Positions 3,883-18,766 of a DNA stretch of 64,000 bases are shown in pieces. A model generated the notes under the pieces. It had not been told where the DNA came from. It saw only the letters and a list, made by a program, of their open reading frames with translations, and searched no databases. The first letter of the stretch is position 1. The number at the start of each line of letters is the position of its first letter. A program made the position numbers and the translations under genes. Location: assembly GCF_900110685.1 (NCBI RefSeq), contig NZ_FOES01000004.1, positions 1 through 64,000 of the forward strand, read 5' to 3'. Source of the DNA: Piscibacillus halophilus (GTDB lineage: Bacteria > Bacillota > Bacilli > Bacillales > Alkalibacillaceae).

Positions 3883-3900
3883 CATAAGACTAATTAATGC

Positions 3901-3970
3901 CTTCATAGTCAGGTTGTTTACGGCAACCCGGTAGAGACTCTTGCCCCGTATTGGCAAGGATATATGAAGT
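3901..3970 (-). promoter_or_regulatory. Guanine-type purine riboswitch aptamer in the guaA leader
   Basis: Read on the minus strand, P1 is closed by CTTCATA and TATGAAG. P2 is CTTGCC/GGCAAG with loop AATACGG. The J2/3 segment is GTCTCTACC. P3 is GGGTTG/CAACCT with loop CCGTAAA. J3/1 reads GACTATG. The C in GACTATG corresponds to the specificity base (C74 of the xpt aptamer) and predicts guanine rather than adenine binding. The terminator at 3833-3882 follows. It should switch guaA off when guanine or hypoxanthine is plentiful. Confidence 0.9.
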
Positions 3971-4008
3971 GTATCACCGTTTCTTATTAGGGGTCGGTTA
4001 ATTTTTAA

Positions 4009-15519: not shown

Positions 15520-15870
15520 TTAAAAGAAATTTATGATCTTGGGTAAAAATATGATAATGCCAATCATGGCGGCAAATATAGCGGCAACAAGAACTGCCCC
15601 TGCACTAATGTCCTTAATATTACGTGCGTGTTCATGCCTTCCAGTAAATATTTGATCGGTTATTTTCTCAATAGATGTATTCAATAGTTCTGCAATTAAG
15701 ACGATGGCAATTGCAATTAATATGAATACCCATTCAATCGCATTTAAGGTTAAAATTAATCCGGTAAATAACACAATAAGCATAGCTACCATATGTATTT
15801 TCATATTTCTTTCAAATTGAATGGCTTTGAAAATACCTCTTATGGCATGTCTAAATCCGATCTTATTCAT
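15520..15870 (-). CDS. dgkA: Diacylglycerol/undecaprenol kinase
   Basis: The 116-residue membrane kinase has three hydrophobic helices and the family motif AELLNTSIEKITD, which carries the catalytic and metal-binding Glu residues. In Gram-positive bacteria this enzyme phosphorylates undecaprenol, feeding the lipid carrier pool for cell-wall synthesis. The ATG overlaps the end of ybeY by 8 bp, suggesting translational coupling. Confidence 0.95.
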   Translation of the reverse strand: MNKIGFRHAIRGIFKAIQFERNMKIHMVAMLIVLFTGLILTLNAIEWVFILIAIAIVLIAELLNTSIEKITDQIFTGRHEHARNIKDISAGAVLVAAIFAAMIGIIIFLPKIINFF

Positions 15871-16333
15871 CTCGCTTCAATCCGAATTCCTCTAGAATAT
15901 GTTCTTGTCTTTCGAACATTTCTTTTTCTTCTTCAACGGTTTGATGATCATATCCCAATAAATGAAGAAAGCCATGAACGATTAGAAAACCTAATTCACG
16001 TTGATATGAATGATTATATTCTTCGGCTTGCTCTTTAGCCTTTTCTAACGACACGACGATATCTCCCAAATGTTCGGGTAAGTTATCTCCCACTATTTCC
16101 ATTTCATTTTCTCCAGACTCTTGCATAGCAAATGAAATCACATCTGTTGGCTGGTCTTTTTGTCGATATTCACGATTAATATCTTGAATCTGCGTGTTAT
16201 TAACAAATGTAACGGACATCTCCGCTTCTGAATTCACTTCTTCCATTTCAGCTGCATACTGCAACAACTTCGATAACCAATTCTTTTCTTCTTCTGTTAT
16301 CTGGTTAAGTTCATCATTAAAATCAATGTTCAT
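15863..16333 (-). CDS. ybeY: Endoribonuclease YbeY (rRNA maturation factor)
   Basis: A 156-residue UPF0054 metalloprotein involved in 16S rRNA 3' maturation and ribosome quality control. The zinc triad is in HGFLHLLGYDH near the C-terminus (about residues 121-131). AGGAGG lies 8 nt before the ATG. It is tightly packed between pgpH and dgkA. Confidence 0.97.
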   Translation of the reverse strand: MNIDFNDELNQITEEEKNWLSKLLQYAAEMEEVNSEAEMSVTFVNNTQIQDINREYRQKDQPTDVISFAMQESGENEMEIVGDNLPEHLGDIVVSLEKAKEQAEEYNHSYQRELGFLIVHGFLHLLGYDHQTVEEEKEMFERQEHILEEFGLKRDE

Positions 16334-16334
16334 T

Positions 16335-17786
16335 TTAGTGACCTCCTGGCATTAAATGCATCATGTTGTCCTTAGGGTATTCAATTCTAGCATGGAAAAT
16401 CCCATTTAACATATCACAAATATTCTTCTCTATCGTTAAAACTTCATGAATCGTTAAATCACTATCATTAAATTGGCCATCCATTAAACGATCATTTATA
16501 ATCGAGCGCACAATTTGTTTGATTTCCTCATTAGTGGGTTGAGTCTTTGATCTAACAGCCGCTTCAACTGAATCACATATATTGATGATAGCGGCTTCTT
16601 TAGTTTGAGGAATCGGACCCTTATATCTAAAGGTTGATTCTTGAACTTTAGAATTTCGTTCTTTTGCTTTGTAATAAAAATACTTTAATAAAGTCGTCCC
16701 ATGATGTTGTTCAGCTATATCAATAATCTCCTGAGGCAAACCGTATTCTTTAAGTAATTGGGCACTATCATATGGATGTTGTAAAATTATCCGTGCACTA
16801 TCTTCTGGTGGTAGAGAATCGTGAGGATTATGACCACTTTGATTTTCTATAAACATATGCGGCTTTAATGCCTTTCCAACATCGTGATAATAGGCTGCTA
16901 CACGAGCTAACAATCCGTTAGCTCCAATCGATTCACAAGCTGATTCACTTAAGTTTGCAACCATCACACTGTGTTGGTACGTTCCAGGAGCTTCCACTAA
17001 AACTTTACGTAATAATGGATGATTAGGATTTGATAAGGATAACAATTTCGACTCTGTTAACATATTAAACCCAGCTTCTATTAAAGGTAATATACCTAAT
17101 GTCAATATCACTGCAAATAATACTGAAACCATTGAAAATACCAAAGAAAGTATAAAGTCCGACGACATCATAGTCCAGGTTGACCATGTTCTAAGTTCAA
17201 ATATAACAATTAATACAAAATGGACCGATAATAAAGATGTCGAGGTCTTTAGCAAAGTCTTTCGGTCTTTTATAGACTCAAACATAAATACCGCAAACCA
17301 TTGAGATAGCAACAAATAAATAAACAATTGCCACATGCCAAAGTCGGTAGCTATAAATAAGAAACTACCGAACACAGCCATCATGACCGATGATATTAAT
17401 GCAAATCGTTCATTGATAAAATATTTTATTAATATTGAAAAAGCGGCTATTGGTGTCATATAAAAAATTATTGGAAGATCTATATCAATGGCTTGTATAG
17501 CAAACATTATTAATAGCATGCCAGAGCCTAAGAACGAAAAGGTTATCGTTTCTTGACTATACCAGTTCGGTTGGTTATGAATTTCAATGCGAAGCAGTAC
17601 TCCTAATAATAAACCAACACTTATGGCCATCAACAATTCATTTACCGTCATGTATTGTTGAAAATATTGAATAACCATTAACCCTATGAATACAGTCGGT
17701 GTCATGAAAAGCGTTAATATATTGTAGATATTAATATTTTTAAAATTAACGAAGAAAAGTGTTTTTTGCTTTTTTGCTAAATTCAT
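16335..17786 (-). CDS. pgpH: HD-domain c-di-AMP phosphodiesterase PgpH, lacking the extracytoplasmic domain
   Basis: The C-terminal half matches PgpH/YqfF. A membrane domain ends LPLIEAGFNML, the characteristic LSNPNHPLLRKVLVEAPGTYQHS follows, then the HD residues (YYHDVGK, EQHHG). Such enzymes cleave the second messenger c-di-AMP. The protein is only about 484 residues, against roughly 700 in B. subtilis. About eight hydrophobic segments are visible, but the first is joined to the second by ~10 residues where a ~220-residue 7TMR-HDED domain normally sits. The ATG at 17786 follows GGTG; other starts are 17792 and a TTG at 17807. Confidence 0.9.
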   Translation of the reverse strand: MNLAKKQKTLFFVNFKNINIYNILTLFMTPTVFIGLMVIQYFQQYMTVNELLMAISVGLLLGVLLRIEIHNQPNWYSQETITFSFLGSGMLLIMFAIQAIDIDLPIIFYMTPIAAFSILIKYFINERFALISSVMMAVFGSFLFIATDFGMWQLFIYLLLSQWFAVFMFESIKDRKTLLKTSTSLLSVHFVLIVIFELRTWSTWTMMSSDFILSLVFSMVSVLFAVILTLGILPLIEAGFNMLTESKLLSLSNPNHPLLRKVLVEAPGTYQHSVMVANLSESACESIGANGLLARVAAYYHDVGKALKPHMFIENQSGHNPHDSLPPEDSARIILQHPYDSAQLLKEYGLPQEIIDIAEQHHGTTLLKYFYYKAKERNSKVQESTFRYKGPIPQTKEAAIINICDSVEAAVRSKTQPTNEEIKQIVRSIINDRLMDGQFNDSDLTIHEVLTIEKNICDMLNGIFHARIEYPKDNMMHLMPGGH

Positions 17787-17812
17787 TTTCATACACCAAC
17801 TTTTCAATTATA

Positions 17813-18766
17813 TTATTTTTCGTAGGCTTCAATGACTTTTTGAACGAGAGGATGTCTTACAACATCTGAACCTTTTAAGTAGTTAAACGAAATACCGTTA
17901 ATACCACTTAAACGATCTTCAGCTACTTTCAATCCTGATGTTACACCTTTAGGTAAATCAATTTGGGTAATATCCCCTGTGATGACCATTTTTGAACCAA
18001 AACCTAAACGAGTAATAAACATCTTCATTTGCTCAGGTGTAGTATTTTGAGCTTCATCTAAAATAACAAAAGCATCGTCTAGTGTACGTCCTCGCATATA
18101 AGCCAAAGGAGCAATTTCGATCGTTCCCCGCTCTAATAAACGTACTGTATGTTCCGTCCCAATTACATCATGGAGAGCATCATATAATGGCCTTAAATAT
18201 GGATCAACTTTTTCTTTTAAATCACCCGGTAAAAAACCTAAGCTCTCACCCGCTTCTACCGCTGGACGGGTTAGAATTAAGCGTTTGACCTCTCCATTTC
18301 TTAAAGCCTTAGCAGCCATTACAACAGCTAAGTATGTTTTACCAGTTCCGGCTGGCCCAATTCCAAAAACTAAATCATTCTTTTTTATAGATGAAACATA
18401 ACCACGTTGCCCTAATGTTTTAACACGAATCGGTTTTCCTTGCTGGTTTTTAGTAATTTCATCTTCAAATAAAGTTTCAAACTGCTCTATTTTACCTGAT
18501 TTTGCTAACTCTAATCCATATATGACATCACGTTCAGTGATGTTAATGCCTTTTTTAATAACTTTTAGAACTGATTCTAATAAAGAAAAAACGATATTAA
18601 CATCTTCTTCTTCCCCAACAATTTTCACTTGTCCACCGCGAGTGATAATTTTAACAGGGATGAAATGTTCGATTTGTTTTATGTTACGATCATTTGTTCC
18701 AAATAAGTTTAATGTATCTGAATGATCTTCTAAGTGTAAGTCAATCGTTTTATTCGTTTCTGTCAT
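17813..18766 (-). CDS. phoH: PhoH-like ATPase
   Basis: A 317-residue PhoH/YbeZ family ATPase, often linked to RNA metabolism and genomically to YbeY. An N-terminal KH-like segment (about residues 20-90) precedes the P-loop GPAGTGKTYLAV and the Walker B FVILDEAQN. AAGGAG 8 nt before the ATG lies inside the 3' end of yqfD, so translation is probably coupled. Gene order yqfD-phoH-pgpH-ybeY is conserved in Bacilli. Confidence 0.95.
   Translation of the reverse strand: MTETNKTIDLHLEDHSDTLNLFGTNDRNIKQIEHFIPVKIITRGGQVKIVGEEEDVNIVFSLLESVLKVIKKGINITERDVIYGLELAKSGKIEQFETLFEDEITKNQQGKPIRVKTLGQRGYVSSIKKNDLVFGIGPAGTGKTYLAVVMAAKALRNGEVKRLILTRPAVEAGESLGFLPGDLKEKVDPYLRPLYDALHDVIGTEHTVRLLERGTIEIAPLAYMRGRTLDDAFVILDEAQNTTPEQMKMFITRLGFGSKMVITGDITQIDLPKGVTSGLKVAEDRLSGINGISFNYLKGSDVVRHPLVQKVIEAYEK

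Follow-up and report, generated by a model that had tools for sequence, protein, structure and literature searches.

The window, by which we mean the whole 64,000-nucleotide stretch of Piscibacillus halophilus DNA analysed here, carries on its minus strand a pgpH gene in the order phoH-pgpH-ybeY that is typical of PgpH genes. The gene spans 16335..17786 (-), stop codon included, and encodes 483 amino acids from the ATG at 17786; it was identified from its open reading frame, Pfam matches and a family profile search. Upstream lies phoH (17813..18766, -; assigned by Pfam) and downstream an open reading frame (15863..16333, -) that we take to be ybeY. A second ATG for pgpH is present at 17792, and TTG 17807 is the most upstream possible start of the open frame. 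Since the frame start is limited to 17807 and phoH ends at 17813, there is no space upstream for the outer 7TMR-HDED domain, as an earlier note on this DNA had stated. Elsewhere in the window, a pemK RNA motif (475-572, +; 56.2 bits) and a purine riboswitch (3886-3987, -; 84.4 bits) were recorded.

Pfam assigned residues 53-244 of the protein to 7TM-7TMR_HD (PF07698; 5.1e-19, 69.4 bits against a cut-off of 29.4) and residues 269-409 (16560..16982, -) to the HD catalytic domain (3.5e-19), which was also delimited by alignment to 4S1B, the HD domain of Listeria PgpH; no Pfam match to 7TMR-HDED was found in the protein even at an E-value limit of 10. An AlphaFold model based on 10 short relatives predicts eight membrane helices (residues 20-42, 48-70, 77-100, 106-110 with 112-123, 126-143, 151-169, 175-202 and 209-240), with a mean pLDDT of 67.6 and block means of 85-92 over residues 21-70. 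Helix 1 (17661..17729, -) and helix 2 (17577..17645, -) are separated by about five residues (43-47; 17646..17660, -), rather than the approximately 10 given in the earlier note, and this junction, whose breakpoints are approximate as drawn from alignments, hhalign and the model, is the site where long relatives have the HDED domain of about 220 residues. Helices 3-8 (residues 77-240; 17067..17558, -), placed by the models and by structure comparison, form a six-helix core. The 19 residues ahead of helix 1 include four lysines and no acidic residue, a composition consistent with a cytoplasmic N-terminus.

The window protein is an HDED-less variant (ortholog) of PgpH and not a canonical PgpH, an assignment made because the outer 7TMR-HDED domain is missing. 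It shares with Listeria PgpH (Lmo1466) and Bacillus subtilis YqfF the 7TM-7TMR_HD module, the HD domain, all metal-ligand positions and the place between phoH and ybeY, but it differs from them in the absence of 7TMR-HDED, in having helices 1 and 2 only a few residues apart, and in changes at several conserved positions. The earlier description of a PgpH that has kept about eight helices and an intact HD domain while lacking HDED is borne out by these results.

Our search for the missing domain covered both the protein and the genome. The possibility of a divergent HDED domain concealed in the N-terminus was rejected, as hhalign could pair only a single HDED column with residues 1-52 (E 0.51). 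A separate HDED gene was likewise sought and rejected: PF07697 had no match anywhere in the window genome (2.99 Mb, 99.98% complete), with 3/14 control genomes including B. subtilis matched. It was equally absent from the 14 genomes that form the short or absent pgpH clade described below, with controls again matching. A protein of another sequence could still supply the HDED function in trans, but we consider any such partner very unlikely given the absence of PF07697 from all 14 of these genomes. The origin of helix 1 can be read in two ways. The helix pairs best with the first helix of the long forms, in the same register, although the match is weak (hhalign P 0.006, probability 6%); MAFFT and local hhalign instead place the end of the short-form helix 1 on the last HDED helix, so that helix 1 is either the retained old helix or a rebuilt one.

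Within the host's GTDB family, the 22 genomes comprise 12 with a short pgpH (G000, G001, G002, G004, G005, G006, G008, G009, G010, G011, G012 and G021, from seven genera), eight with a long form containing HDED (G013-G020) and two without the gene (G003 and G007). Two of the short records are imperfect: in G006 a contig end truncates the gene, and the G001 record, from an 82%-complete assembly, is the sole short relative with a local frame disruption and also has no HDED match. An assembly error or frameshift hiding a full-length gene in the window is extremely improbable, as it would have to recur in 12 genomes of seven genera, all without a PF07697 match. The PgpH of Allobacillus salarius is also short, and among the best 80 named loci, which are the top-scoring matches and not a random sample, the only three without a long form belong to Alkalibacillus haloalkaliphilus (two) and A. 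salarius. Two other loci among these 80 are unusual but long (L064, 683 aa; L075, 641 aa and cut by a contig end). In G013 (L033, 2385-4525, +), the long pgpH appears as overlapping frames of 629 and 103 aa near the C-terminus, from either a frame disruption or a sequencing error.

A tree built from the PhoH, YbeY and Era proteins grouped the genomes with short or absent pgpH in one clade (ultrafast bootstrap 95). Its rows were 21 of the 22 family genomes and 16 named loci, one of them A. salarius; two rows lacked Era and one lacked PhoH, and G006 was left out because no neighbour motif was found on its short contig. The names ybeY, dgkA and era in the pgpH neighbourhoods of these genomes are our presumptive assignments. 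HDED is present in G013, G014 and G020, the closest relatives of the short clade. G003 and G007 are nested in the GTDB genus that holds A. haloalkaliphilus. In both of these genomes (L036 and L037) phoH and ybeY lie 24 bp apart with the neighbouring gene order kept, indicating a clean deletion of pgpH. The simplest history is therefore a single excision of HDED followed by one loss of pgpH, with the excision seeming to have happened in the common ancestor of the clade to which Alkalibacillus and Allobacillus belong.

Our analysis of the catalytic domain revealed close agreement with Listeria PgpH. The HD domain matched 4S1B at 8.1e-87, Foldseek comparison with 4S1B and 4S1C gave TMt values of 0.87-0.90, and the residues H272, H301, D302, H337, H361, H362 and D405 were invariant in 17/17 aligned PgpH proteins. 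Their assignment as metal ligands follows the alignment to 4S1B and presumes the Listeria PgpH residue numbering. Residue 271 (16974-16976), adjoining the ligand His272, is Gln in the window protein and His in the other 16 aligned PgpH proteins; a more distant HDED-less protein (L129, f146; see below) also has Gln at this position. Estimates of dN/dS (NG86) for two pairs of short proteins of the same family were 0.049 and 0.037 in the HD domain and 0.068 and 0.088 in the 7TM part, and for a third pair 0.106 in the 7TM part with HD saturated, the values of the second and third pairs being rough because dS exceeds 1. The first 55 or so residues of short PgpH evolve faster (dN/dS 0.22 and 0.48 in two pairs). 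Both the HD and the membrane parts look maintained by purifying selection in the tested pairs, and to judge from its sequence the short PgpH is most likely a catalytically active phosphodiesterase hydrolysing c-di-AMP to pApA, the reaction that defines PgpH.

These values also bear on the proposal that pgpH in this clade is on its way to being lost, with HDED excision as the first step, completion in two species, and GdpP doing most of the work. Such a course would be consistent with the position of the two pgpH-free genomes inside the short clade, with GdpP-type GGDEF matches (PF24898) above cut-off in 22/22 family genomes (in two pieces in G006), and with the 38/397 genomes of the order sample that have no PF07698 match; because two species discarded the gene, it may be dispensable. 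However, the tested copies have low dN/dS, and 12 of the 14 clade members retain the gene, even where identity to the window protein falls to 49%. We therefore regard ongoing loss as somewhat unlikely.

The c-di-AMP network of the clade appears small: within the DAC, GdpP and PgpH families it consists of a single cyclase plus one or two phosphodiesterases. Genomes of the short/absent clade have one diadenylate cyclase (0/14 with a second), and a second, DisA-sized cyclase (356-374 aa) was found in four of the 22 family genomes, all with long-form PgpH (4/8). A coincidence of HDED loss with DisA loss was considered and rejected: since only half of the long-form genomes have the second cyclase, its absence is not specific to HDED loss. 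The DAC and GdpP matches persist in G003 and G007, and without pgpH these species would rely on CdaA and GdpP, within the same three families.

HDED-less forms were also sought beyond the family. In the order sample (397 genomes) PF07698 was found in 359 genomes and PF07697 in 354, and the seven genomes with PF07698 but without PF07697 all belong to the host family (G000, G002, G004, G005, G008, G011 and G012). Two other genomes of this sample (G272 and G292; f40, g96) have weak HDED matches (2.0e-4 and 4.9e-4) with no 7TM-7TMR_HD match, representing either a remnant or chance. In the phylum sample (299 genomes) the corresponding counts were 272 and 263, and the nine differing genomes comprise the window genome, four f133 genomes that share a genus, a single f146 genome, and G645, G430 and G563. 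In G430 and G563 the PF07698 matches are weak and were rejected as not PgpH; the one in G563 (L135, minus strand) falls on a frame that resembles the ECF S-component QueT (E 8.3e-4) and gave a first indication of the fold likeness discussed below. In G645, the locus L133 (943-2127, -) holds a 394-aa PgpH-like frame with membrane helices and no HD motif between phoH and ybeY, apparently a PgpH with a decayed catalytic domain that also lacks HDED.

The HDED-less proteins of f133 and f146 (474-521 aa) resemble the window form in their short N-terminus, 7TM part, retained HD motif and adjacency to phoH, but they belong to lineages distant from the window clade, and their losses are therefore apparently separate from that in the host family. 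This distribution points to at least three losses of HDED within the phylum, and its repeated loss suggests that it is a modular accessory. The reverse order of events, with an ancestral short form and HDED as a later gain, could draw on the same f133 and f146 proteins and on the control Thermotoga maritima, which from profile matches alone has PF07698 without PF07697. It is nevertheless highly improbable, given both the presence of PF07697 in most order and phylum genomes and the HDED domains of the nearest relatives of the short clade.

To describe the changes that accompany HDED loss, 20 membrane-part positions, each conserved in at least 29/32 long proteins, were compared in nine short family proteins. 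Residues P50, G53, K95, S98, N189 and S244 were changed in 9/9 and L54 in 8/9, while R175, L228, G231, P234, E237, L243, L248, P112, A114 and A129 were kept in 9/9 and L123, F144 and Y157 in 5-7 of the nine; of the changed residues, P50, G53, K95, S98 and N189 are conserved in 30-32 of 32 long proteins. The invariably kept G231, P234, E237 and L248 lie in the linker to the HD domain. P50 and G53 sit at the outward-facing end of helix 2, and K95 and S98 close to that of helix 3. The split is imperfect, as P112 and A114 are kept although they lie near the outer end of helix 4, and S244 on the cytoplasmic side is changed. Three short proteins of other lineages (two of f133, one of f146) have P50, S98 and N189 changed in 3/3, with K95 and G53 each kept in two. 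The pattern might mean that the membrane core has lost its coupling to the outer domain and retained that to HD; it is suggestive only, because the short family represents one event.

Measured against 20 named long proteins, the membrane part of the short forms has diverged faster than that of the long forms, with mean distances of 0.73-0.77 (10 short) against 0.59-0.67 (seven long family members); for the HD domain the corresponding ranges were 0.33-0.37 and 0.30-0.32. This divergence, together with the change of K95, S98 and N189 (30-31/32 long proteins) in all nine short proteins, would be consistent with a constitutive, unregulated housekeeping phosphodiesterase whose helices became a mere anchor once HDED was gone. 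We consider this unlikely, as several observations point to a membrane part still under constraint. For this part two pairs have dN/dS values of 0.07-0.09 and the third pair one of 0.11, and its polar residues S161, Q162, R127 and H189 are invariant in 10/10 short proteins, the first three being common to 7/7 long family members and the last being N in long forms. Distances within groups are mixed by bin, and in the HD bin 0.30-0.35 the short 7TM parts are less diverged than the long ones (0.60 vs 0.65; five and 148 non-independent pairs).

To see what this membrane part resembles, residues 36-250 were modelled on their own from 44 sequences (mean pLDDT 91.1, pTM 0.87), and VIA-align was run on the best 1000 Foldseek-ranked chains. 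The top 19 rows were chains titled S-component or ECF transporter complex (Z 12.5-8.0, 153-172 residues), the best reaching Z 12.5 over 160 residues, although Z below about 13 can arise by chance for helical bundles. They include 4huq_S, which is titled only 'a transporter' and which we take to be an S-component. The next rows had Z 7.4 with 59 residues aligned and, for the unrelated NosY, Z 7.2 over 151 residues; families other than S-components thus rank lower among these 1000 chains, without thereby being excluded. In the full-length short model the best membrane matches were likewise S-components (Z 11.7 to RibU). The Foldseek matches to S-components had probabilities up to 1.00 with E-values that are not significant (best 0.073; none <=0.001). 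Comparison by hhalign of the PgpH membrane part with eight QueT and six 5TMR sequences scored no better than shuffled and reversed controls and so gave the S-component link no support from sequence profiles; as QueT against 5TMR did no better, this comparison is uninformative.

The S-component matches span helices 3-8, with helix 2 mostly outside, and by the model these six helices of PgpH appear to resemble the S-component fold. In the part of their work available to us, Partipilo and Slotboom describe this fold in MreD and, with H0 as an additional helix, in 5TMR sensor kinases, and it is reported there for pyruvate-sensing kinases (PMC11109136). In the PgpH model, helix 48-70 and loop 71-76 would take the position of H0, which in those kinases runs N-out to C-in, and of the cytosolic loop that follows it, the direction of helix 2 being deduced only from the even number of helices and the cytoplasmic HD domain. 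Helices 2-8 of PgpH would therefore resemble the arrangement of H0 and six helices in 5TMR kinases of the LytS/YpdA/BtsS type, as far as that source describes it (PMC11109136): a cytosolic loop leads into six helices of S-component-like fold, and HD is placed where the kinases have their cytosolic catalytic domain, the PgpH side of this likeness resting on the model and the deduced topology.

PgpH differs from these kinases in having an HD phosphodiesterase instead of a kinase and an extra helix 1 before H0. The NXR motif between helices 1 and 2 is found in 0/44 PgpH proteins; because of this count it was not placed in the 5TMR-LYT family. Its model shares a six-helix fold with ECF S-components such as RibU, FolT, ThiT and BioY, but the AXXXA docking motif of helix 1 occurs in only 4/44 PgpH proteins, and PgpH is fused to an enzyme; the motif count is why it was not assigned as a transporter subunit. 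PgpH was put in neither class, and the relation is accordingly described as a fold likeness. The terms PgpH, HD domain, phosphodiesterase, PF07698, c-di-AMP and extracellular domain are all absent from the main text of PMC11109136, and no S-component reading of PgpH was found in the literature searched on S-component with PgpH or c-di-AMP. We tentatively suggest, as a possible reading, that PgpH may be a receptor of S-component fold fused to a phosphodiesterase, in which the '7TM' region would be H0 plus a vitamin-transporter-like binding core, HDED a removable outer accessory excised in several lineages, and the short form a minimal ligand-reading phosphodiesterase.

Taken together, we think it probable that the window gene is a true pgpH from which HDED was removed in frame once, and that its product is active, with a set point that depends on the membrane core and cytoplasmic inputs and no longer on the outer domain. 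The results show the architecture, its spread across the clade, one origin on the tree, an intact set of active-site residues, purifying selection in the tested pairs and the S-component likeness of the model; its catalytic activity, its regulation by the membrane core and its loss of the outer input are what we infer. HDED would have been excised in the clade ancestor, leaving helix 1 as an anchor, helix H0, the six-helix S-component-like core and the cytoplasmic HD phosphodiesterase. The membrane core might then set activity by reading a ligand or the state of the membrane within the bilayer, cytoplasmic inputs such as (p)ppGpp could also tune it, and whatever the outer domain reads or binds would no longer be an input. 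Inhibition of PgpH by (p)ppGpp has been reported in other species, and HDED function is described as unknown, in the portion of a 2023 review available to us (PMC10243994). The earlier note had proposed that activity no longer depends on the outer signal. This is supported only in part and in a narrow sense, as HDED is gone and PF07697 is missing from the genome and the 14 clade genomes; that HDED senses a signal, and that the short form is signal-independent, go beyond these results. Membrane regulation may persist, given purifying selection on the module and its S-component-like model, and in our view a retained membrane input is likelier than signal independence. The short PgpH is most likely a membrane-embedded receptor-phosphodiesterase stripped of its outer add-on.

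Two older papers may already mention such a form: Anantharaman and Aravind 2003, reportedly the founding paper on these receptors, and Huynh 2015, said to be the Listeria PgpH paper. No description of an HDED-less PgpH was found in the literature searched, which included the available parts of PMC10243994, PMC5575661, PMC12072042, PMC5897029, PMC11302148 and PMC5986932. In this naturally occurring PgpH, maintained although it lacks HDED, the membrane module stands apart from the outer domain, and its S-component-like core hints at a cavity within the bilayer that might bind a ligand. If the receptor reading is true, the short form shows the entry point of the signal, and the S-component likeness, which would extend to PgpH generally, is the more interesting lead. 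The short form and the likeness of its core together make the question of what tunes c-di-AMP breakdown directly testable in strains used in the laboratory.
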